Assembly (NCBI GenBank): GCA_947491935.1
Contig: CANLLF010000003.1
Coordinates: 830,397 to 894,396, forward strand
Source: an uncultured Roseicyclus sp.
GTDB taxonomy: Bacteria; Pseudomonadota; Alphaproteobacteria; Rhodobacterales; Rhodobacteraceae
Direction of reading: 5' to 3'
DNA: 64,000 nucleotides
Both the position numbers and the translations under genes were made by a program. Position 1 is the stretch's first letter. Each line of letters opens with the position of its first letter. Under the pieces are notes generated by a model. That model was not told the origin of the DNA, did not search any database, and was given only the letters and a program-made list of their open reading frames with translations. Shown one piece after another: positions 3,131 to 20,630 of the stretch.

Positions 3131-4180
3131 CTACCGGTCCAAACCGTTCAGGACTTGTCCGGCAATTGCCGCGGTCCCTTGCCATGTCGGCAAAGCCGCC
3201 CCGGCCCGCGCGGCGGCGTCCCCCATGCGGGTGCGCAAGGCCGGGTTTGTCAGCATCTGTTTCAGCGCATTGGCCAGCGCGCCCGGCGCATCGACGGGCA
3301 CCAGCAGCCCCGCATCGTCCGGCACTGTGTGAGGCACCGCGCCGGTGGCGCAGGACACGATGGGAAGCCCCCGCGCCAGCGCCTCATCAAACACCATGCC
3401 GTAGCCCTCGTAGCGGGTGGCGAGGGCAAAGAGGGAGGCGCTTCTGTAAAGGTCCTCCAAGTCCGACTGCGAGACGCGACCGGCCAGATCCACCCGATCG
3501 CCGAACCCGAGATCCCGCCACAACCGCGCCAGATCCTCCGCATGGGCGGTATCGTGGACCGAACCGACGATCACCGCCCGCCAGTCCAGATCCATCAGCT
3601 CCGCCAGCGCCCGGAGCAGGACATCGTGCCCTTTACGCCGGTGCTGAATGCCGACCGACAGGATCAGCGGTGGATGGGAGGGCGCGCGTGCGCCTTTGGG
3701 CCGTTCGGTGCCTGGCTGTGCAATGGTGATCTTCTTTGGAGGAACGTCGTAGCCGGTCCGCAGGATATGGGCGGTATGGGTGCTTGGCACCAGAACACGG
3801 GCCGCCAGCGCCAGATTGGCGCGCTCGGTTTCAAGCAGATGCGCCCGCCGCGACGGGCTGAGGCCGGTTTCCAAAGCCAAGGGATGGTGGATCATTGCAA
3901 CGATGGGCGCGGCGACCCCGGCCAACCCGTCGGTGTCGATGGAGCCATAGACCAGCCCGTCGAGGATCAGCGCGCGCGCCGGATCGAGCGCTTGGAGCAC
4001 CCGCACGGCGTGGTCCATGTCGGACGGCGTCGGATCAGGGAACGACGCGCCAAGTTGGAGATGCACCACGTCATGGCCGTGCGCACGCAACTCCTCCAGC
4101 AGGCGACGTTCATAGATATAACCGCCGGTCACGGTGGCGATGTCGCCTGGAATGGCGAAGGCGGCGGCGCGGGGTGTCAT
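3131..4180 (-). CDS. GT4-family glycosyltransferase
   Basis: 349 aa. Retaining GT-B glycosyltransferase using a nucleotide-sugar donor. The C-terminal domain has the GIQHRRKG donor loop (177-184) and the EX7E motif E258 to E266 inside EGYGMVFDEALARG, typical of GT4. There is no signal peptide or membrane span, so it probably acts at the cytoplasmic face. The start is set by an ATGA overlap (4177-4180) with the ABC permease stop. The open frame continues upstream through the permease gene, but that extension is not coding. It sits between a transporter and an FkbM methyltransferase, suggesting a glycoconjugate gene tail on the ABC operon. Acceptor and donor are unknown. Confidence 0.9.
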   Translation of the reverse strand: MTPRAAAFAIPGDIATVTGGYIYERRLLEELRAHGHDVVHLQLGASFPDPTPSDMDHAVRVLQALDPARALILDGLVYGSIDTDGLAGVAAPIVAMIHHPLALETGLSPSRRAHLLETERANLALAARVLVPSTHTAHILRTGYDVPPKKITIAQPGTERPKGARAPSHPPLILSVGIQHRRKGHDVLLRALAELMDLDWRAVIVGSVHDTAHAEDLARLWRDLGFGDRVDLAGRVSQSDLEDLYRSASLFALATRYEGYGMVFDEALARGLPIVSCATGAVPHTVPDDAGLLVPVDAPGALANALKQMLTNPALRTRMGDAAARAGAALPTWQGTAAIAGQVLNGLDR

Positions 4181-5748
4181 GCCAGTTGCTCCGGCGCATA
4201 GGCCGCCAGAACGCGCCGTTCCAGCAGGCCCACACAGGCATATCCCATCGCCGAGAGCACGCAGACCAGCGCGACCGAGCTCCACAACATGTCGTAATCC
4301 GAGAGCGAGGCCGACAGGGCCATGACGCTGCCGATGCCGTTCCCGGTGGCAAGCCATTCCACGACCGTCACGGCCAGCACCGAAGCGGGCACGTTCATCC
4401 GTGCGGCGGCGAAAAACGCAGGCAACATCGCGGGAATACGTACCCGAAGCAGCACTTGCCACGGGCTCGCCGCATAGCTCCGCATCACGTCCATGACGCG
4501 GCCCGGGGCCTGACGAAGCCCGTGCAGGCAGGCCACGAAAGTGGGGAAAAAGACCATGATCGCCACCAGCACCACCGTGCCGAGGGCTCCGCGCCCGAGG
4601 ATCAGCACAACCAGCGGCGCCGTCGTGATGATCGGGACGGAGCGAAGCGCGATGGCCACCGGCATCGCCGTGCCCGAGATCGCCGGAAAGAGCACCACCA
4701 ACATGGCCAGAACGGCCCCGGCCGCCAGCCCTGCCACGTAGCCGGGGAGAAGGAACACTCCCGTTTCGCGCATCGCGTTCGCCAGCGTCGAGCGGGTTGC
4801 GGCGGCATCGGGGGCGAGAAAAAGCGCCTCGAACACATCCCACGGCCCCTTGGCGAAGAACGGGCTCAGGTTCAGGAGCCTCAAGCCACCCCACCAGATG
4901 GCGATCATCGCCGCCGCGACGGCAAGAACGGTGAGAAACGCGCGGGAGCCTTTGCGCCCACCCTCCGCCGGTGCCGCAAGGATCACCGGGGGTTCGTCGG
5001 CCATGAACAGCCGTGCAATCCAGCCGATGGCGAGGTAGCCCAGAACCGCCACAGCCGTGGCCACACTGGCCAGCGCCCATGTCATCTCGACATTCATGCC
5101 CCGCATGGCCCGGATCGTGAGCACGCCCATACCGCGCTCAGCCCCGGTGAACTCGCCCACCATCGCGCCCAGAAACGCCGCGGGCGCCGCGATCTGCAAC
5201 CCGGCCACCAAATAGGGAAGCGCCGCCATGGCGCGCACATGGATCAGGGCCGCCATCCGCCCGCGCCCATAGCTGCGCACAAGATCGAGCCAACCGGTCG
5301 GCAGGGCCCGGAGACCCACAAGCAGTGGGATCAACGTGGTGTAGTAGACCGCCAGCGCCGCCAACACGATCTGCGGCCACGGGCCCGGGCCGAACACCAC
5401 GCGCAGGATCGGGCCGGTGGCCACCAGCGGCAGGCAGAACACCAGAAGCGCCAGGCCACGCACCATGGCATCGCTGCGCGGCCAGACAACGGCCAGCGTC
5501 GCAAGGGCGATGGCCGCCAGATTGCCGATGACAAAGCCCGCGGCCGCATTGCCAAGCGTCACGCCAAGGGCGCGGGCCATCAAGGCGGCATTGTCGGACA
5601 GGTAGATCAGGATCGCCGAAGGTGCCGCGAGAACAAAGGCATCGGACAGGGCGCGGGCCCCAAGTTCCCAGATCACGAGTGCAAGGATCGGGCCAAGATA
5701 AGGGCCTGCCCGGACCGGCCAACGCTGCGCCGGGGTGGCTATTGTCAT
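4177..5748 (-). CDS. ABC transporter permease with two fused TM domains
   Basis: 523 aa, about twice the length of a SsuC/TauC/ThiX-type permease. Two binding-protein-dependent permease modules lie in tandem. The first spans about 1-250, with the coupling-helix region around YGRGRMAALIHVRAMAALPYL. A linker around 250-265 follows, then a second module with the equivalent SYAASPWQVLLRVRIPAMLPAFF. Each has about six hydrophobic helices. The fusion supplies both halves of the membrane channel from one gene. It overlaps the ATPase gene (5745-5748) and the glycosyltransferase gene (4177-4180) by ATGA, so expression is tightly coupled. The family transports sulfonates, nitrate or thiamine precursors, so the substrate is open. 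Confidence 0.9.
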   Translation of the reverse strand: MTIATPAQRWPVRAGPYLGPILALVIWELGARALSDAFVLAAPSAILIYLSDNAALMARALGVTLGNAAAGFVIGNLAAIALATLAVVWPRSDAMVRGLALLVFCLPLVATGPILRVVFGPGPWPQIVLAALAVYYTTLIPLLVGLRALPTGWLDLVRSYGRGRMAALIHVRAMAALPYLVAGLQIAAPAAFLGAMVGEFTGAERGMGVLTIRAMRGMNVEMTWALASVATAVAVLGYLAIGWIARLFMADEPPVILAAPAEGGRKGSRAFLTVLAVAAAMIAIWWGGLRLLNLSPFFAKGPWDVFEALFLAPDAAATRSTLANAMRETGVFLLPGYVAGLAAGAVLAMLVVLFPAISGTAMPVAIALRSVPIITTAPLVVLILGRGALGTVVLVAIMVFFPTFVACLHGLRQAPGRVMDVMRSYAASPWQVLLRVRIPAMLPAFFAAARMNVPASVLAVTVVEWLATGNGIGSVMALSASLSDYDMLWSSVALVCVLSAMGYACVGLLERRVLAAYAPEQLA

Positions 5749-13256: not shown

Positions 13257-14549
13257 ATGGACGAAGGGGCGACAGCAGGCATGATGGGCTATCTGACCAT
13301 TGCCATGTTCCTGTCCGCGTTCTGCATGGTCGCGAACCGTCTGTCCCGCACCCCCCTGACAGCGCCGATGGTGTTCCTTGGCTTCGGCGCCTTGCTGGCG
13401 CAGTTCGGCATGGTGCCCGAACCCAGTTCGGAGGCCGCGCTGCATGTGGTGGCCGAGGTGGCACTGATCGTGCTGCTGTTTTTGGATGCGGCGCAGATCG
13501 ACCAGCGCGCGCTGCTGCGCCGCCGGGTCTGGCCGTTCAGGATGCTCACCATCGGACTGCCGCTTGGGTTTCTGTTCGGCGTAGCGCTGGGATGGATCCT
13601 GCTGCCGGGATGGCCGTTTGCCGTGGTGGCCCTGATCGCTGCCATCCTCGTGCCCACCGATGCTGCCCTCGGCCAGGCCGTGGTGACGAATACCGACATT
13701 CCTGAACGCCCGCGCCGGGCGCTGACGGTGGAAAGCGGCCTCAATGACGGGCTTGCCCTGCCGCTGGTTCTGATGATGGCCGCGCTGGCCGCGCCCGAGG
13801 CGATGGCGCCTGCGGGCGGCTGGCTGTTCTTCACCCTGAAACAGCTGGTGCTTGGCCCGCTGGTCGGGATCGCGCTGGGGCTCGGGGCGGGCTACGTTCT
13901 CCTCTGGGCCAAACGCACCCACGCGACATCGGATGTCTATGAGGGGATCGGTGCGCTGGCGCTGGCCGGCGCAAGCTATCTGGCGGCCACGCAGATCGGC
14001 GGGAACGGCTTCATCGCGGCCTTCGCCGCCGGGTTGGGCTTTGGCGCCATCGTCCGGGGCCAATGCGCCTTTGTCTACGAATTCACCGAAAGCGAGGGGC
14101 AGTTGCTCTCATGGGCGGCCTTCTTCCTTCTGGGCGCCGTTCTGGTGCCGCAGGCCGTGGCCCACCTGACCCTCAACACATTGCTGCTGATCCTCGGGAG
14201 CCTCTTCCTCGTGCGCCCGCTGGCGATCTGGCTCTCGCTTCTGGGCACCGATGCCTCTCCCATCTCGCGGCTCTTTTTCGGCTGGTTCGGGCCCAGGGGC
14301 CTGGCCACCGCACTCTTCGCGCTTCTGGTGGCCGATCAGCTGGATCATCAGGTCGCCGAAGACGTGCTATACCTCGCGGTGAATGCCGTCTGGATCAGCG
14401 CGGTGCTCCACGGGATCAGCGCCGCGCCGGGCGCCACACTCTATGCGCAACGCCTTGCGCAGATGCCACAAAATGACGGTGAGATGCGGCCGGAAGAGCC
14501 CTCCACCGACGCCTTTAAAACACGACAGACTGAACCGACAGGGACGTAA
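13257..14549 (+). CDS. CPA-type cation:proton antiporter
   Basis: 430 aa, about 12 membrane helices. NhaP/CPA1-like Na+/H+ or K+/H+ exchanger. The conserved core VPTDAALGQAVV and the following ESGLNDGLALPLV carry the ion-binding D and N/D residues expected for CPA1. A hydrophilic tail ends in TEPTGT. I chose the ATG at 13257; GTG 6 nt upstream and ATG at 13281 are alternatives. The stop is 3 nt before the Rieske-glutamate-synthase gene, so this transporter appears to lead that operon. That suggests the pathway needs pH or ion adjustment, or that the product generates ammonium. The link is inference. Confidence 0.87.
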   Translation: MDEGATAGMMGYLTIAMFLSAFCMVANRLSRTPLTAPMVFLGFGALLAQFGMVPEPSSEAALHVVAEVALIVLLFLDAAQIDQRALLRRRVWPFRMLTIGLPLGFLFGVALGWILLPGWPFAVVALIAAILVPTDAALGQAVVTNTDIPERPRRALTVESGLNDGLALPLVLMMAALAAPEAMAPAGGWLFFTLKQLVLGPLVGIALGLGAGYVLLWAKRTHATSDVYEGIGALALAGASYLAATQIGGNGFIAAFAAGLGFGAIVRGQCAFVYEFTESEGQLLSWAAFFLLGAVLVPQAVAHLTLNTLLLILGSLFLVRPLAIWLSLLGTDASPISRLFFGWFGPRGLATALFALLVADQLDHQVAEDVLYLAVNAVWISAVLHGISAAPGATLYAQRLAQMPQNDGEMRPEEPSTDAFKTRQTEPTGT

Positions 14550-14552
14550 GAC

Positions 14553-16166
14553 ATGAACAAAACATCCGTAGCCCGCGTGAGCGACCTGCCCGACCGCAAA
14601 CCGGCCTATGCTCTGGTGGCAGACGTCGATCTCGTGGTGGTCCGCTTCGATGATGAGGTGTCGGTTTTCTACGGGCGCTGCCTGCATCGCGGCGCGTTGA
14701 TGTCGGACGGATATGTGCGCGGCAAGGACCTGATCTGCGGGCTGCACAATTGGGATTACCGGATGGATACCGGCGTGTCGGCCTATGCCAACGAGGAAAA
14801 GCTGCCGAAATTCAAGGCGTGGGTGGAGGGCGACGACATCCTGGTGGATGCAGATGAAATCGCCGCTTGGGCCGAGGACAATCCCCAGCCCTTCAACCGC
14901 AACGCCTATCTGGGCCTTTACGCCGACACGTCCCACGGCACGGCGGAAGAGCCCCATAACGGCCTGATCCAGCAATATGCGCGCGACGGCCTCTCCAAGA
15001 CCGGCCATCACGGTGTGGTCGATGCCATGGGCGTGCCACGGGACGAATTGCCATCCTGGGACGATATCCAGATCCTCACCGCGCAATTGCAGACCCCGCC
15101 GCTGCTGGATGACGATCCGGTGGGCACCGATGTGGTGATCGGGCCCAATGCACAAAAACCGCTGCGCCTGAAGATCCCGCTCTTTGTCTCCGACATGTCC
15201 TTCGGGGCCCTGTCAGAGCCCGCCAAGATTGCACTGGCGCGCGGCGCCGAGCTGTCGGGCACGGGCATCTGCTCCGGCGAAGGCGGCATGCTACCCGAGG
15301 AGCAGGAAGCCAATAGCCGCTATTTCTATGAGCTTGCCTCCGCCCGGTTCGGGTTCGACTGGGAGAAGCTCTCCAGGGTCCAGGCGTTCCATTTCAAAGG
15401 TGGACAAGGGGCCAAGACTGGCACCGGGGGCCACCTGCCCGGCGCCAAGAACAAGGGCAAGATTGCCGAAGTGCGCGGGATCGAGGAGGGTACGGACGCG
15501 ATCTCCCCGCCGCGTTTCCCGGATTGGACGGAACCCTCGCAGATCAAGGATTTTGCCGACGAGGTGCGGGATCGGACCGGCGGCATCCCCATCGGCTACA
15601 AACTCAGCGCGCAGCATGTGGAGAAAGACATCGATGCCGCGTTGGAGGTTGGCGTCGATTACATCATCCTCGACGGGCGCGGCGGCGGCACCGGCGCGGC
15701 GCCCATCATCTTCCGCGACAATATCTCGGTCCCCACTATTCCCGCGCTCGCCCGCGCGCGGCGGCATCTCGATGTGCTGGGGCGCAAGGATGTGTCGCTG
15801 GTCATCACCGGCGGCCTGCGCAAACCGGCCGATTTCATAAAGGCCATGGCGATGGGGGCCGATGCGATCGCGGTTTCGAATTCGGCCATGCAGGCCATCG
15901 GCTGCATTGCGATGCGGGCCTGTCACACCAACAATTGCCCCGTCGGCATTGCCACGCAGAAACCCGAGCTTGTCAGCCGCATCGTGGTGGAGAAATCCGC
16001 GCGACGGCTGGCGAATTTCTTCGATGCCAGTGTGGAGTTGATGCAGGTGATGGCACGCGCCTGCGGGCATGGACACCTGTCGGAGTTCAACCAGAGTGAC
16101 CTGACCACATGGAAGCGGGACATGGCCGATCTGTCCGGCGTGGCCTATGGGGGCGTTGCGGGATGA
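14553..16166 (+). CDS. Rieske domain fused to glutamate-synthase-type FMN domain
   Basis: 537 aa. Residues 1-100 form a Rieske ferredoxin with all four ligands: C43-x-H45 and C62-x2-H65 (RCLHRG, ICGLHNWDY). Residues of about 150-530 form the FMN-binding TIM barrel of glutamate synthase, with SDMSFGALSEPAKIALA, the GLSGEGG-like loop GICSGEGGMLPEE, and near 450 the C..C....C pattern of a 3Fe-4S site (GCIAMRACHTNNCPVG). There is no glutaminase domain, so it cannot take nitrogen from glutamine by itself and may use another amino donor. It is coupled by ATGA to the next gene. Rieske fusion to this barrel is unusual. The physiological reaction is unknown. Confidence 0.88.
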   Translation: MNKTSVARVSDLPDRKPAYALVADVDLVVVRFDDEVSVFYGRCLHRGALMSDGYVRGKDLICGLHNWDYRMDTGVSAYANEEKLPKFKAWVEGDDILVDADEIAAWAEDNPQPFNRNAYLGLYADTSHGTAEEPHNGLIQQYARDGLSKTGHHGVVDAMGVPRDELPSWDDIQILTAQLQTPPLLDDDPVGTDVVIGPNAQKPLRLKIPLFVSDMSFGALSEPAKIALARGAELSGTGICSGEGGMLPEEQEANSRYFYELASARFGFDWEKLSRVQAFHFKGGQGAKTGTGGHLPGAKNKGKIAEVRGIEEGTDAISPPRFPDWTEPSQIKDFADEVRDRTGGIPIGYKLSAQHVEKDIDAALEVGVDYIILDGRGGGTGAAPIIFRDNISVPTIPALARARRHLDVLGRKDVSLVITGGLRKPADFIKAMAMGADAIAVSNSAMQAIGCIAMRACHTNNCPVGIATQKPELVSRIVVEKSARRLANFFDASVELMQVMARACGHGHLSEFNQSDLTTWKRDMADLSGVAYGGVAG

Positions 16167-16546
16167 CGGCCACGGCGATCATCGCGCTGGCGCAGGGCTA
16201 TTGCGTGATCGGGGTTATCGTGGCGCTGATTTTCCTGACCGTCGGCATGGATCGCATCGATGAGGACGCGCGCGGGGCCTACGCGTTTCGCCCACTCCTG
16301 ATCCCGGCAATTCTGCTGATCTGGCCTCTGGTGTTGTGGCGGTGGCTGCGCGAGGAAACCGGCGCCGCAAGCTGGCAGGGCCGCCATAGCCCGCCGCGCG
16401 CAGCCCATGGCGTTGCCGCGGCGTTGATGGCGGTGATCGTGGTGATCACGCTCGCCACGGGCTTCACCATTCGCCAGACATGGCCAGCTGACCGCGCGCC
16501 TCAGCTCCTTGTTGCACCCGATGGCGGATCGGAGGCCTCGCAATGA
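16163..16546 (+). CDS. small membrane protein of the Rieske operon
   Basis: 127 aa, three predicted transmembrane segments (about 4-27, 44-60 and 85-105) with a charged loop containing EETGAASWQGRH. I do not recognise a named family. The ATG overlaps the stop of the Rieske-glutamate-synthase gene, and its own stop overlaps the next start by ATGA, so it is made in step with both. Its position directly before a membrane cytochrome suggests an accessory or anchoring subunit of a membrane redox complex. That role is inference. Confidence 0.75.
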   Translation: MTATAIIALAQGYCVIGVIVALIFLTVGMDRIDEDARGAYAFRPLLIPAILLIWPLVLWRWLREETGAASWQGRHSPPRAAHGVAAALMAVIVVITLATGFTIRQTWPADRAPQLLVAPDGGSEASQ

Positions 16547-17607
16547 GCGTCAAGTATATCCCGGTGCAGTGGAACCGCTCCAAATGGGGTTATGATGCCG
16601 TTTTGCTTCTGGGCGTTGGCCTGTTCCTGTGGATCTTCATCCATATCGCGCCCGGCCTTCTGAACCACGAACGCCCGATCAACCCGCCGATCCGCAATGC
16701 CCGCGCCTACGGGGCCTGCGCGTTTGTGATGCTGACGATCATCCTGTGTATCGGCCCGTTGGCGCGGCTCGATCGGCGGTTCCTGCCGCTCCTCTACAAT
16801 CGGCGCCATTTCGGGGTGATGACGGCCGCCGTGGCGCTCAGCCATGCCTATTTCGTACTTGGCTGGTATTTCTCGGCCTATCAGGGTGCGACGCGGTGGG
16901 AAACGGTCCTGTTTGCCAATACCAGCTACGGGCAGGCTCTGGGCTTTCCCTTTGAAAGCCTTGGCATATTCGCGCTGATCTGCCTGTTGATCCTGGCCGC
17001 CACAAGCCATGATTTCTGGCTCAAATTCCTCACGCCGCCGGTCTGGAAGGCGATCCATTTCCTGATCTACCCGGCCTATGCGGCGCTGGTGGGCCATGTG
17101 GCGCTTGGCGCGTTTCAGGCGCGCGGGAACGAGACGCTGGCGGTGATCTTCACCGGTGGCGCGCTTCTGGTGGTGGGCCTGCATATCTGGGCCGCCCTGC
17201 GGGAGCGGACACGCGCCACGCCTGCCACCGATTGGGTCGCCATGGGCCCGGCCAGCGACATCCCCGAGGGCCGTGCCAAGATCGCGCTGCTGCCCTCGGG
17301 CGACCGCGTCGCCGTCTTCCGCCATGAGGGCCAGCTCAGCGCCATTTCAAACGCCTGCGCGCATCAGAACGGGCCGCTGGGTGAGGGGCGCATCCTCGAT
17401 TGCCTCGTCACCTGCCCCTGGCACGGCTTCCAATACGATGTGCGCACCGGCCAATCGCCCGCGCCGTTCACCGAAAAGGTGCCGACCTATCGCCTGAAGC
17501 TGGAAGGCGATGCAGTGTTTGTGGACCCGGACCCGAACCCGCCCGGCACGCCCGTCGATCCCGTCCCCGCCCCGGCAGGCACCCCAGCGCAGGAGGCCCC
17601 GGCATGA
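16543..17607 (+). CDS. ferric-reductase-like membrane domain fused to Rieske domain
   Basis: 354 aa. Residues 1-220 are a polytopic b-type cytochrome-like module with histidines H34, H101 (LSHAYF), H172 (AIHFLIYP) and H185 (VGHVALG), spaced as in ferric-reductase/YedZ-like heme proteins. Residues 228-335 form a Rieske domain with C272-x-H274 (NACAHQNGP) and C291-x2-H294 (TCPWHGF). The C-terminus is a proline-rich tail. The arrangement suggests electrons move between heme in the membrane and a cytoplasmic [2Fe-2S] cluster. It overlaps both neighbours by ATGA. It is the likely membrane terminal of the operon's electron chain; acceptor or donor unknown. Confidence 0.85.
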   Translation: MSVKYIPVQWNRSKWGYDAVLLLGVGLFLWIFIHIAPGLLNHERPINPPIRNARAYGACAFVMLTIILCIGPLARLDRRFLPLLYNRRHFGVMTAAVALSHAYFVLGWYFSAYQGATRWETVLFANTSYGQALGFPFESLGIFALICLLILAATSHDFWLKFLTPPVWKAIHFLIYPAYAALVGHVALGAFQARGNETLAVIFTGGALLVVGLHIWAALRERTRATPATDWVAMGPASDIPEGRAKIALLPSGDRVAVFRHEGQLSAISNACAHQNGPLGEGRILDCLVTCPWHGFQYDVRTGQSPAPFTEKVPTYRLKLEGDAVFVDPDPNPPGTPVDPVPAPAGTPAQEAPA

Positions 17608-18365
17608 AAGACGATCCGTTCTTCGTAGGTTATCTGCGTGTCCCGCCGGACCTGCGCCTGTTCCTGACGGCCACCTGCCTTGCGCTTCTGGTGGGCGCCG
17701 CAGGGCTCGCCTATGCCCTGTCGCTGACGCAGGACGATCCCGGCCAATCGCGCCCGCGCTTTGATTTCGGCCCGCAGACGGTGTTGGGCGTTCTGGAGCT
17801 CACCCCCAGCCCGATCCTGCATGTGACCCAAGGCACCGACACAATCCCGGACGGCCAGACCCTGATGCTGGCCGGTCAGGGCAAGAACGGGGCCGTGGAA
17901 CGCGCCATGGAGTTGGAGGGGCAGCTGGTGCAGGCGACCGGCGTGCTGTTTGACCGGGGCGATCTCGGCATGTTGCAGCTCAACGGCGGCAACGCGTTTC
18001 GCGCCGCCGAGGATCAATCCGCGATCCCCGACATCCCCGAACCCGAGTCCCTCGGCCGGTGGGAAATCACCGGGGAGATTTGCGATGGCAAGTGTGAAGC
18101 CGGTGCGATGCGCCCCGGGCGTGGCATAGGCCACCGCGCCTGCGCCAACCTGTGTATTCTGGGCGGCATCCCCCCGGTCTTCGTGACAACCCAACCGATT
18201 GAAGGTGAGGAGTTCCTGCTCATCACCGGCGAAGGCGACGAGGTGCTGCCCCCTTCCCTCATCGATTACGTCGGTCTTTACGTGACGCTGGAAGGCGATG
18301 TCGCGCGCCATGGCGACATGCTGGTGCTGACGGTCGATACCGAGACCGTGGAGCTGGTCCCATGA
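17604..18365 (+). CDS. membrane-anchored protein with Cys-rich motif, unknown function
   Basis: 253 aa. One N-terminal transmembrane segment (about 19-40) is followed by a soluble, probably periplasmic domain. The outstanding feature is a block near 158-185 with ICDGKCEAGAMRPGRG and HRACANLCILGGIPPVFV, carrying four cysteines and a histidine in a pattern that looks like a metal site. I have seen similar blocks in uncharacterised membrane proteins next to redox enzymes but cannot name the family. It is coupled by ATGA on both sides, so it belongs to the same complex or pathway as the Rieske proteins. Function is open. Confidence 0.75.
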   Translation: MKDDPFFVGYLRVPPDLRLFLTATCLALLVGAAGLAYALSLTQDDPGQSRPRFDFGPQTVLGVLELTPSPILHVTQGTDTIPDGQTLMLAGQGKNGAVERAMELEGQLVQATGVLFDRGDLGMLQLNGGNAFRAAEDQSAIPDIPEPESLGRWEITGEICDGKCEAGAMRPGRGIGHRACANLCILGGIPPVFVTTQPIEGEEFLLITGEGDEVLPPSLIDYVGLYVTLEGDVARHGDMLVLTVDTETVELVP

Positions 18366-18661
18366 TCCGCCGCATCGTCTTTCTCGCCATCGTCGCCCTG
18401 AACACGGTGATCTTCTACTACCTGTCGCGCTTCTGGGATTTCCGCCTTTGGGGCCGCGACGGCCTGTTCGGCGTGATGGAATTGCGACCCCAGGGCGGGC
18501 TTCTGGCCCGCTGGCTGCGCGGCACCGATTTCGCGCCGTTCGAGCTCCTGATCTGGGTGGTTGCGATCTTCCTGATCCTCACCTGGCTGCAGAAGCTCTT
18601 CGATTTTTTCACCCCCGGCCCGCCCGCTGACCCGGTAAGCAAGGACAATGATGATGACTGA
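18362..18661 (+). CDS. small two-helix membrane protein of the Rieske operon
   Basis: 99 aa. Hydrophobic segments at about 5-22 and 60-77, with a polar loop between and an acidic tail ending DNDDD. No family recognised. It overlaps the preceding gene by ATGA and the following Rieske-ThDP gene by 14 nt. Its size and placement match accessory membrane subunits that dock soluble enzymes to a membrane complex. This is inferred from gene order only. Confidence 0.72.
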   Translation: MIRRIVFLAIVALNTVIFYYLSRFWDFRLWGRDGLFGVMELRPQGGLLARWLRGTDFAPFELLIWVVAIFLILTWLQKLFDFFTPGPPADPVSKDNDDD

Positions 18662-20630
18662 CGAGACCCTCGACTGGATCCATGTGGCTGACGTGGCCGA
18701 AGTGCCCGAGGGCCGGGTGAAGACCGTCACTGCGCGCACAACCTTCCTGTGCCTGTCCCATTTCGATGGCCACTGGGCGGCGATGGACAACCATTGCCCG
18801 CATCAGGGCGGGCCCCTTGGCGAAGGCACGATCGAGCGTGGCGTGGATGACAAATGCTGGATCCGCTGCCCGTGGCACGGTTGGGATTTCGACCCGCTCA
18901 CCGGAGCGCCTCCGGGTGGGCACGAGGATACCGGGCAGAAAACCTACCCCGTCGAGGTCCGCGACGGCGCCGTTTATGTGGGGCTGGAGCCGGAACCCGA
19001 GCACACCCGCACCGTCACCGATGCGATGGCGGAAACGCTGGTCAATTGGGGTGTCAAACGCGTCTTCGGGATGGTCGGCCATTCCAATCTCGGCCTCGCC
19101 GATGCGATCCGGCGCCAGACGCTCACCGGCGCGATGAGCTATGTGGGTATCCGCCACGAGGGTGCAGCCGCATTCGCCGCCTCGGCCTATGGCAAGGTGA
19201 CCGGAAAACCGGCCGCCTGCCTGACCATCGCGGGGCCCGGCGCCACCAACCTGCTGACCGGCATGTGGGATGCGAAAGTGGACCGCGCGCCGGTTCTGGC
19301 GCTGACCGGGCAGGTGCAAACGCAAGTGATGGGCCCCGGCGCGTTTCAGGATATCGATCTGCTCTCCGCGTTCCAGGCCGTTAGCCGGTTCTCGCAACCG
19401 GTCCTGTCGACGTCCAACCACACTGAACTTGCCTCGCTGGCGTGTAAGACCGCGCTGATCGAGCGGGATGTCTCTCACCTGATCTTCCCCGACGACATGC
19501 AGACGCAGCCGAGCGACGCGCCCGCGGGTAAGCCCGATGGCCGCATGTCCGGCCCGGTTGTGAAACCCGCCGACACCGATGTGGATCAGACGATCCGCAT
19601 GATCAACGACGCCAAGCGCCCGATCATCATCATCGGCCACGGCGCGTGGGACGCGCGCGAACAGATCGCCGCGCTGGCCGAAACCATGGGCGCACCGGTG
19701 GTGACGACCTTCAAGGGCAAGGGCCTGATTGCCGACAGCCACCCCAATGCGGGCGGTGTTCTGGGCCGGTCCGGCACGCCGATTGCCAGCTGGTTCATGA
19801 ATGAATGCGACTTGCAGATCGTGCTCGGGGCCTCGTTTTCCAACCATACCGGCATCAATTCCGAGAAACCCACGATCCAGGTGGATTTCGAGCGGATGCA
19901 GCTTGGCAAATTTCACCCCGTCACCCTGCCCGTCTGGGGTGAGATCGGGGCCTTCTGTTCGGCCATTGAACGCCACCTGACGCGCAATCCGGACGCGCCG
20001 GACCAAATCGCGGAACTGGCCGAGCGCTGGCAGATGTGGCGGGGCGAAAAGACCGCCCGCCTCTCGGAAGAGGCCGCAAACGGCGTGCATTCCGCCGCAA
20101 TCTTCGAGGCGCTCTCGCGCGTCGCCCCGGCCGATGCGCTGATCGCCGTGGATGTCGGCAACAACACCTATTCCTTTGGGCGCTATTTCGAGACCAAGGG
20201 CCAGCACGTGATGATGTCGGGCTATCTCGGCTCCATCGGCTTCGCCCTGCCCGCGGCCATGGGTGCCTGGGCCGCGACGCAGGATTTCGAGCATCTGCGC
20301 GGGCGCAAGGTGATCTCCGTCTCCGGCGATGGCGGGTTCGGCCAATACGCGATGGAGATGACCACAGCGGTGAAATACCAGATGGATATCACCCATGTGC
20401 TGCTTCACAACGATGAGCTTGGCAAGATCTCCAAGGAGCAACGCTCCGGTGAATGGGAGGTCTGGGAGACGTCGTTGGTGAACCCCTCCTTCTCCGCCTT
20501 CGCTCGGCTCTGCGGCGCCCATGGCTCCAAGGTGACGGCGGGTGCGGATGTGGAGGCGGCGCTGGCGGAGGCGCTGGCGGTGGACGGCCCGGCGCTGGTG
20601 GAAATCATGTCGGATGCGGAACTGGTATGA
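18648..20630 (+). CDS. Rieske domain fused to ThDP-dependent pyruvate-oxidase-like enzyme
   Basis: 660 aa. Residues 1-115 form a Rieske domain with C50-x-H52 (NHCPHQGGP) and C74-x2-H77 (RCPWHGW). From about 120 there is a full acetolactate-synthase/pyruvate-oxidase fold: catalytic glutamate E171 in RHEGAAAF, GPGATNLLTG near 196-205, a central domain with IIIIGHGAWDA, and a ThDP-Mg site GDGGFGQYAMEM near 560 ending in HND. Enzymes of this group decarboxylate 2-oxo acids and may pass electrons to quinone. Here the Rieske domain could be the built-in electron acceptor. Three ATGs occur in a row; AAGGAC best fits the third (18654). It is the last gene before the opposing tRNA. Substrate unknown. 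Confidence 0.88.
   Translation: MMMTDETLDWIHVADVAEVPEGRVKTVTARTTFLCLSHFDGHWAAMDNHCPHQGGPLGEGTIERGVDDKCWIRCPWHGWDFDPLTGAPPGGHEDTGQKTYPVEVRDGAVYVGLEPEPEHTRTVTDAMAETLVNWGVKRVFGMVGHSNLGLADAIRRQTLTGAMSYVGIRHEGAAAFAASAYGKVTGKPAACLTIAGPGATNLLTGMWDAKVDRAPVLALTGQVQTQVMGPGAFQDIDLLSAFQAVSRFSQPVLSTSNHTELASLACKTALIERDVSHLIFPDDMQTQPSDAPAGKPDGRMSGPVVKPADTDVDQTIRMINDAKRPIIIIGHGAWDAREQIAALAETMGAPVVTTFKGKGLIADSHPNAGGVLGRSGTPIASWFMNECDLQIVLGASFSNHTGINSEKPTIQVDFERMQLGKFHPVTLPVWGEIGAFCSAIERHLTRNPDAPDQIAELAERWQMWRGEKTARLSEEAANGVHSAAIFEALSRVAPADALIAVDVGNNTYSFGRYFETKGQHVMMSGYLGSIGFALPAAMGAWAATQDFEHLRGRKVISVSGDGGFGQYAMEMTTAVKYQMDITHVLLHNDELGKISKEQRSGEWEVWETSLVNPSFSAFARLCGAHGSKVTAGADVEAALAEALAVDGPALVEIMSDAELV

Follow-up and report, generated by a model that had tools for sequence, protein, structure and literature searches.

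Why should three catalytically unrelated redox proteins, encoded side by side, each carry a Rieske [2Fe-2S] domain? The question is raised by a gene cluster in a 64,000-nucleotide stretch of DNA from a marine bacterium, an uncultured Roseicyclus sp. (GCA_947491935.1, contig CANLLF010000003.1, positions 830,397 to 894,396; hereafter the window). On the plus strand, a predicted cation:proton antiporter (NHA) is followed by six closely packed genes, three of which encode Rieske fusions, the others encoding two small membrane proteins (TM1 and TM2) and a membrane-anchored protein (P4). GLT+R (14553..16166) joins an N-terminal Rieske domain (14562..14861; PF00355, E-value of 1.4e-12) to a glutamate-synthase barrel of the flavin mononucleotide (FMN)/3Fe-4S type (Glu_synthase, 6.6e-90). 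FRD+R (16543..17607) is a MsrQ/ferric-reductase-like b-type cytochrome (Ferric_reduct, 1.3e-10) with a C-terminal Rieske domain (17233..17523; 3.7e-15), and TPP+R (18648..20630) has an N-terminal Rieske domain (18675..18980; 1.5e-15) ahead of a pyruvate-oxidase-like thiamine diphosphate (ThDP) enzyme (TPP_enzyme N/M/C, 4.2e-34, 7.1e-35 and 8.6e-31). The three domains score 47.8, 56.0 and 57.3 bits against PF00355, above the cut-off of 20.3. Their ligands, C43/H45/C62/H65 in GLT+R, C272/H274/C291/H294 in FRD+R and C50/H52/C74/H77 in TPP+R, are invariant in alignments of 9/9, 38/38 and 14/14 sequences, respectively. They are exactly those quoted in an earlier sequence-only reading of this DNA, whose description of an antiporter and six packed genes with three unrelated Rieske proteins is borne out by gene coordinates and Pfam.

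NHA lies 3 bp ahead of GLT+R, and the following junctions are four 4-bp overlaps and a final 14-bp overlap, a tight spacing that suggests one transcript. The whole 4.65-Mb genome has nine Rieske matches, three of which fall within the operon; as ~0.01 would be expected per 6 kb, chance clustering of these domains can be dismissed. We favor, though with less than even confidence, the explanation that the operon encodes a redox module wired by fused His-ligated [2Fe-2S] domains, in which a cytosolic TPP+R/GLT+R pair is supplemented by an optional membrane/periplasm branch. Its recurrence, whole or in part, in many relatives and on archaeal plasmids suggests, as far as sequence can tell, an undescribed plug-and-socket electron circuit.

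The three fusions tend to occur together. They were sought in an order survey of 195 genomes and a class survey of 240 genomes drawn evenly; the survey genomes are related, and the GLT, TPP and FRD forms were told apart by the range and E-value of their matches rather than protein by protein. In the order, FRD+R was found in 21, GLT+R in 22 and TPP+R in 17 genomes, with 17 FRD-GLT, 15 FRD-TPP and 16 GLT-TPP pairs, and all three in 15. Leaving out the window's own genus, the numbers are 14, 15 and 10, with all three in 8. The class survey gave FRD+R in 13, GLT+R in 7 (near whole-length matches) and TPP+R in 12 genomes, each pair in 6 and all three in 6. These six genomes include two same-genus pairs, and the one other GLT+R genome of this survey is represented by an assembly that is 67% complete; in G159 the three fusions lie on three contigs. 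Fisher tests for co-occurrence yielded p-values of 5e-6 to 1e-17 with no correction for kinship. A GLT of either the Rieske form or a form with CDGSH motifs (see below) accompanies TPP+R in 17/17 genomes of the order and 6/12 of the class, and the co-occurrence suggests TPP+R/GLT+R as the putative core pairing.

Linkage is retained while the gene order changes. Among 61 genomes, the window's own and its relatives, 13 have a near full-length FRD+R. As to whether the gene order recurs elsewhere, it is kept in five relatives (G001, G005, G007, G009 and G010), NHA being adjacent only in the window and G010, and other loci are rearranged. Two genomes (G008, G011) read TM1-FRD-P4-GLT-TPP, one (G013) carries the membrane genes and GLT-TPP on separate contigs, three (G016, G020, G029) have only the membrane genes within the stretch fetched, and in G045 the FRD, GLT and TPP fusions lie within ~66 kb. 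The set is thus kept together as NHA-GLT-TM1-FRD-P4-TM2-TPP, NHA-GLT-TPP-TM1-FRD-P4 or TM1-FRD-P4-GLT-TPP. Genome contigs were also scanned for loci, with genes called by a script that is crude in GC-rich DNA, and 80 loci were taken, the best of at least 576, a sample biased to near relatives. Among these 80, FRD is flanked by 9 kb or more on each side in 51 loci; 31 of them contain GLT, 30 contain TPP and 26 both.

Beyond the class, the haloarchaea Salinirubellus, Halorarius and Halorubrum have plasmids that encode both GLT+R (62-63% identity) and TPP+R (58-60%), separated by 1.4, 4.0 and 16.7 kb, respectively. No FRD+R was found on these three haloarchaeal plasmids, in a search that covered plasmids, not chromosomes. 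Further TPP+R orthologues are located on plasmids of Haloferax larsenii and Mycobacteroides (57% and 52% identity), and two Rhizobium plasmids carry the membrane genes, with neither soluble fusion in the stretches fetched. As a separate observation, the three haloarchaeal neighborhoods (L178-L180) all contain merA and an M20 peptidase gene, and two of them (L178, L179) also contain dihydrofolate reductase and TauE/SafE genes.

That the cluster domain serves as a connector is indicated most strongly by its exchange on GLT, where the catalyst stays while the plug changes. The closest Rieske-less GLT relatives, matching from position 126-130 with E near 1e-210, comprise 3 class and 11 order matches from 13 different genomes; one more order match, in G665, was set aside as a GLT+R split across two frames. 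Two CDGSH motifs replace the Rieske domain in all those inspected, which cover 5/13 genomes (L131, L132, L133, L185 and L194) plus a Vibrio plasmid copy (L181). Pfam confirmed two CDGSH domains in L131, L132 and L185, the three tested, and found a Rieske domain and no CDGSH domain in GLT+R of the window. The Rieske-bearing and doubly CDGSH-bearing forms share ~70% identity over ~406 residues of GLT, and none of the 11 order genomes with a Rieske-less relative also holds GLT+R. In G635, the sole TPP+R genome of the order survey without GLT+R, the CDGSH-GLT gene overlaps TPP+R by 4 bp, indicating that the exchange took place within the operon slot. In addition, TPP+R of G120 and G268 possesses CDGSH, Fer4_19 and CDGSH domains before the Rieske domain (Pfam; order of the parts by eye); CDGSH-Fer4_19-CDGSH motifs were recognized by eye in that of G166, and G220 has a frame of equal length. 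Moreover, the gene 3' of FRD+R in G252 encodes a fusion of a Rieske domain with an FMN reductase, whose Rieske domain falls among those of TPP on a long branch. This fusion was detected in 2/240 genomes, the second being G150 (64% identity), where no FRD+R was found.

Phylogeny of the Rieske domains was a point on which the sequence-only reading had placed weight. A shared lineage was not demonstrated, and a common origin of the three as a single clade was neither supported nor rejected (p-AU of 0.124 in the approximately unbiased (AU) test), the trees resting on ~110 columns with long branches. A 138-row tree was built by thinning near-copies from 266 domain hits and adding haloarchaeal, own-genome and P450 rows; four of the own genome's six other Rieske proteins entered the trees, L172 and L177 missing the motif. 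In this tree a single branch sets apart the GLT rows (76/86), and another the NirD-like rows; L115, a copy of FRD that has one masked residue and was entered as 'other', falls with FRD, and the Rieske of L148 with TPP. In a 46-row tree, from which L115 and the long-branch L176 were dropped, FRD, GLT (100/98) and NirD are single groups, and TPP is split by L138. Other families fall between the three Rieske domains in the best trees, and in the 46-row tree a Rieske-P450 joins that of GLT. The AU test, run on 43 rows that also left out L138, L144 and L148, rejected neither all three together nor FRD+TPP (0.284) nor TPP+GLT (0.156), and rejected FRD+GLT (0.008). The nearest outside neighbor of the GLT Rieske in the 46-row tree, L182:5980-7809 on the Methylorubrum extorquens AM1 megaplasmid, is a Rieske domain fused to an apparent cytochrome P450.

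Both soluble enzymes keep the signatures of their catalytic families. The 3Fe-4S cysteines C451/C457/C462 of GLT+R are invariant (9/9) and align with the C-x5-C-x4-C motif of solved glutamate synthases, and the test for a glutamate synthase large subunit gave 302.4 bits with PF01645. The score against the NCBIfam glutamate synthase equivalog is 126.8 bits at a cut-off of 1047, and Pfam found no glutaminase domain. The families nearest to TPP+R are pyruvate oxidases; its best solved relative is E. coli PoxB, with which the central domain aligns. In the alignment with PoxB, the catalytic Glu and the ThDP motif correspond to E171 and D561, each invariant (14/14), and N588 (13/14). The score of 375.8 bits against the best pyruvate oxidase NCBIfam equivalog does not reach the cut-off of 742.

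Some relatives of these two enzymes have other surroundings. In L053 (about 3290-4830), from a Roseobacter assembly, the second pair of Rieske ligands and the linker that follows are missing from GLT, and a fused FRD-P4 gene lies downstream. In three genomes of one genus without FRD+R or TPP+R (L187, L188 and L189, from G668, G568 and G644), GLT+R lies within ~3 kb of an MsrP-MsrQ-like molybdoenzyme/ferric-reductase pair, with a fasciclin-like gene in between (Pfam for L188 only). The CDGSH-Fer4_19-CDGSH-Rieske-TPP gene of L136 and L137 (G268 and G166) is located directly 3' of a dihydroxy-acid dehydratase (IlvD) gene, assigned by Pfam in L136 and by likeness in L137.

The membrane set consists of TM1 (16163..16546), with three transmembrane (TM) segments predicted by hydropathy, FRD+R, P4 (17604..18365), which is predicted to be periplasmic, and TM2 (18362..18661), with two predicted TM segments. 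FRD+R, which shares 97% identity with that of an uncultured Roseicyclus, has six TM segments by hydropathy and scores 41.8 bits against PF01794 (cut-off 28). Its H89, H101, H156, H172, H185, H214 and R87 are invariant (38/38); H101, H172, H185 and R87 make up the YedZ/MsrQ His pattern, for which a surface-proximal heme is expected (PMC3591440), leaving three further invariant His. Mean Lys plus Arg counts are 2.6, 4.6, 2.0 and 2.7 in the presumed cytosolic parts and 2.2, 1.0 and 0.2 in the presumed periplasmic parts, a charge pattern that places the C-terminal Rieske domain most likely in the cytosol. In the AlphaFold2 model of FRD+R (pLDDT of 84.0), the best Foldseek matches of the Rieske part are Rieske ferredoxins of dioxygenases (E-value of 2.6e-8). 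The score against NCBIfam MsrQ is 24.7 bits, short of the cut-off of 130, and the gene that follows is P4 rather than an MsrP molybdoenzyme; Pfam found neither the FAD- nor the NADPH-binding domain of NOX and long-form ferric reductases.

The P4 model (pLDDT of 89.6) shows a single TM helix (residues 15-41) followed by a β-rich part with two OB-like barrels. A C-x3-C ... H-x2-C-x3-C motif is conserved, C160 in 39/40 and C164/M169/H177/C180/C184 in 40/40 sequences. P4 has no Pfam family (the best match in 15 sequences was DUF5818 at 0.09, in 2/15) and no significant PDB match by sequence, and its best Foldseek matches, to OB-fold proteins, are not significant (E-value of 5.1e-3). TM1 has no credible Pfam family, its single match (0.077) lying far below the cut-off, and TM2 has none. 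Pfam and the literature yielded no role for the P4 family or the four-gene membrane set. TM1 and P4 accompany FRD in 51/51 of the well-flanked loci, P4 is present in 8/9 further FRD loci from the class survey (L139, L140, L143-L149), and FRD and P4 form a single open frame of 611 residues in L053.

The C-terminal domain of P4 also occurs alone in small secreted proteins; in the A2 search of 299 genomes, nine match, two of them by this domain only. Examples are the stop-to-stop frames L165:6978-7472 and L168:6375-7070. Downstream of the P4-domain gene in G143 (L168) come another gene for a small secreted protein and, after 3 more bases, SCO1/SenC, an arrangement that may point to copper or thiol redox chemistry. 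Just ahead of TM1-FRD-P4 in G159 (L140:4425-6069) lie a YHS-domain gene and a SPASM-domain, radical-SAM-like gene. On a Rhizobium plasmid (L032:12191-15385), TetR, sigma-70-family, DUF1109, NrsF and chlorite-dismutase-family genes lie 3' of the membrane set, which may mean stress control.

The domains with their intact ligands, the conservation and co-occurrence of the fusions, their retention through rearrangement, the exchange of domains and the fusion of FRD to P4 are all observed. From sequence we infer the cofactor loading, substrates, direction of electron flow and physical contact between Rieske domains, along with all other functional properties given here for the module. The known chemistry of the ThDP and glutamate-synthase families points to 2-oxo acid oxidation leading to reductive amination. 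TPP+R is also the one enzyme here for which a low-potential substrate that could donate electrons is obvious, as far as we judge. We propose that cytosolic TPP+R most likely oxidizes a 2-oxo acid, taking up its electrons, and that its Rieske domain would pass them singly to the Rieske (or CDGSH) domain of GLT+R, from which they would reach 3Fe-4S and FMN with neither NAD(P)H nor free ferredoxin as carrier. GLT+R would then most likely spend the electrons on reductive amination, producing glutamate or a relative. In the branch TM1-FRD+R-P4-TM2, the cytosolic FRD Rieske could join the same pool and heme b could link it to periplasmic P4, either as an overflow to the periplasm or as a supply from it; reverse flow, from the periplasm or quinone into GLT+R, is also conceivable. 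The antiporter, which often accompanies GLT, could serve ammonium, potassium or pH.

If this is true, electron transfer on unrelated catalysts would be standardized by one small cluster domain, so that partners swap and the plug stays, providing natural, testable rules for which iron-sulfur proteins communicate. It would also give a role to the four-gene membrane set and the OB-fold P4 family, and possibly open a way into amino-acid synthesis that does not depend on NAD(P)H. The proposal in its fullest form is a system of Bacteria and Archaea in which the oxidation of 2-oxo acids directly powers glutamate formation or another reductive amination, with neither pyridine nucleotide nor free ferredoxin between them, a heme-b/OB-fold membrane branch exports surplus electrons to the periplasm, and Rieske and CDGSH domains are interchangeable plugs; to that whole we assign a low probability.

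Several findings weigh against a module built on the TPP+R/GLT+R pair. Relatedness of the survey genomes makes the Fisher values overstate independence. TPP+R occurs without GLT+R in 6/12 class genomes and GLT+R without TPP+R in 6/22 order genomes, and tblastn ranked no near full-length GLT+R on the TPP+R plasmids of Haloferax larsenii and Mycobacteroides. The missing glutaminase domain bears on both the nitrogen source and the product of GLT+R. PoxB F465, which we take to sit between ThDP and FAD, is replaced in TPP+R by Lys (K593, 14/14), so the chemistry may differ from that of PoxB. In the membrane branch, FRD+R of G252 has no P4 (L148, an 8.4-kb contig), the Rieske-FMN reductase being in its place.

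Three other explanations were weighed. The sequence-only reading had envisaged a modular electron chain centered on the membrane cytochrome. A shared modular system agrees with the co-occurrence, the order changes, the dispersal and the exchangeable [2Fe-2S] module, but an obligate cytochrome center is not supported: GLT+R lacks FRD+R in 5/22 and TPP+R in 2/17 genomes of the order, in addition to the three haloarchaeal plasmids (plasmids only). A tentative statement that GLT+R hardly ever occurs without FRD+R, prompted by 1/7 in the class survey, was dropped in view of the 5/22. Spelled out as a hub model, this reading has the soluble Rieske enzymes each paired with the membrane cytochrome, feeding electrons across the membrane or drawing them from it, with no exchange of electrons between the soluble enzymes. 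The presence of GLT+R in 17/21 FRD+R genomes of the order, the constant company of TM1 and P4, the predicted cytosolic position of the FRD Rieske and the second Rieske fusion directly after FRD+R in G252 would all fit. Yet GLT and TPP+R adjoin in G567 (as NHA-GLT-TPP) and in G635 (with CDGSH-GLT), where no FRD+R was found, and the haloarchaeal plasmids likewise carry both; the Rieske-FMN reductase exists in G150 apart from any FRD+R found; and 4/21 order genomes (G190, G662, G671 and G678), along with 7/13 of the class, have FRD+R without either partner. We therefore regard this arrangement as rather improbable.

It is unlikely, too, that the genes share nothing but regulation, each Rieske domain serving its own enzyme and being fed by general reductases. 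Each fusion does occur without the others, which goes part of the way to an outcome, wide occurrence without the partners, that the sequence-only reading had named as refuting its case: besides FRD+R alone, GLT+R stands without either partner in 4/22 order genomes (G568, G644 and G668, of one genus, and G682), and TPP+R in the 6/12 class genomes given above. The absence of a demonstrated shared Rieske lineage speaks the same way. However, regulation alone hardly explains retention of the set across gene orders and two domains of life, the swap of the [2Fe-2S] domain in the same slot or the FRD-P4 fusion. We give least credence to an ion or pH stress module, in which Rieske and CDGSH domains would gate the enzymes in response to pH or redox state, and the glutamate that these enzymes make beside the antiporter would serve as counter-ion or osmolyte. 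Both domain types are His-ligated, which suits such gating. An antiporter gene lies immediately upstream of GLT, on the same strand, in 17/39 GLT-bearing loci of the best 80 (-1 to 94 bp between the matched parts; the 39 include L053, whose GLT lacks the second half of the Rieske domain), and stays next to GLT+R even when the latter sits apart from FRD (L141, L150). On the Halorarius plasmid, only 43 bp separate TPP+R from the start of a PF00999 antiporter gene that follows it, with a potassium channel gene adjoining, and on the Mycobacteroides plasmid an antiporter is located ~3 kb from TPP+R, with an FMN_red protein nearby. Nevertheless, the same-strand upstream slot holds no antiporter in 22/39 loci (the sequence available upstream being short in a few), identity of the Halorarius antiporter is only 26% over 227 residues, and FRD and P4 are left unexplained.

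Compared to known systems, the set is a variant built from known kinds, and would be categorically new only if direct wiring were shown. The membrane branch resembles E. coli MsrPQ (YedYZ) in that a short b-type FRD protein hands electrons to a periplasmic partner, and FRD+R has equivalents of YedZ His-115, 209 and 222, matched by spacing, with Arg at the fourth place (PMC3591440). It differs from MsrPQ in the fused cytosolic Rieske domain, in two further small membrane proteins and in its partner P4, an OB-fold Cys/His protein instead of a molybdoenzyme. The same FRD-Rieske fusion is catalogued among bacterial extensions as architecture M4, with no partners, operon or function given in the accessible part of that source (PMC3591440). 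CDGSH fusions with Glu_synthase, Fer4_19 and Rieske_2 are also catalogued (PMC5859297); the CDGSH-glutamate-synthase proteins have the domain pair of the relatives of the window GLT, whereas GLT+R has a Rieske domain in place of two CDGSH, and the accessible part of that catalogue mentions neither a Rieske-GLT protein nor its neighbors. PoxB and the glutamate synthase large subunit share the catalytic folds of TPP+R and GLT+R, but not the fused Rieske domains; a glutaminase domain was not found in GLT+R by Pfam, and Lys replaces F465 in TPP+R. Rieske-type ferredoxins of carbazole, toluene, naphthalene and biphenyl dioxygenases have the fold of the FRD Rieske and are separate shuttle proteins feeding oxygenases, whereas here each catalyst carries its own fused Rieske domain. 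The earlier claim that no such system had been described thus stands for the composition, as open-licence full texts yielded nothing on Rieske-GLT, Rieske-TPP or the whole set, and needs qualifying for the two catalogued architectures.

Around the operon, the antiporter gene NHA (13257..14549, plus strand; PF00999, 3.1e-36) is closest to K+/H+ antiporters among NCBIfam models, with scores below cut-off. Downstream glutamine-synthetase-like and Fe-alcohol dehydrogenase genes were considered and rejected as members: a tRNA-Thr intervenes, and matches among the best 80 loci are scattered and weak. No universal extra neighbor emerged from these loci, the commonest cluster, ABC-type ATP-binding-like, appearing in 22/80 on both strands and at scattered distances. 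A cytochrome b561-type gene (PF01292; 11055-11606) is located ~1.6 kb ahead of the antiporter, with an MdoG gene in between.

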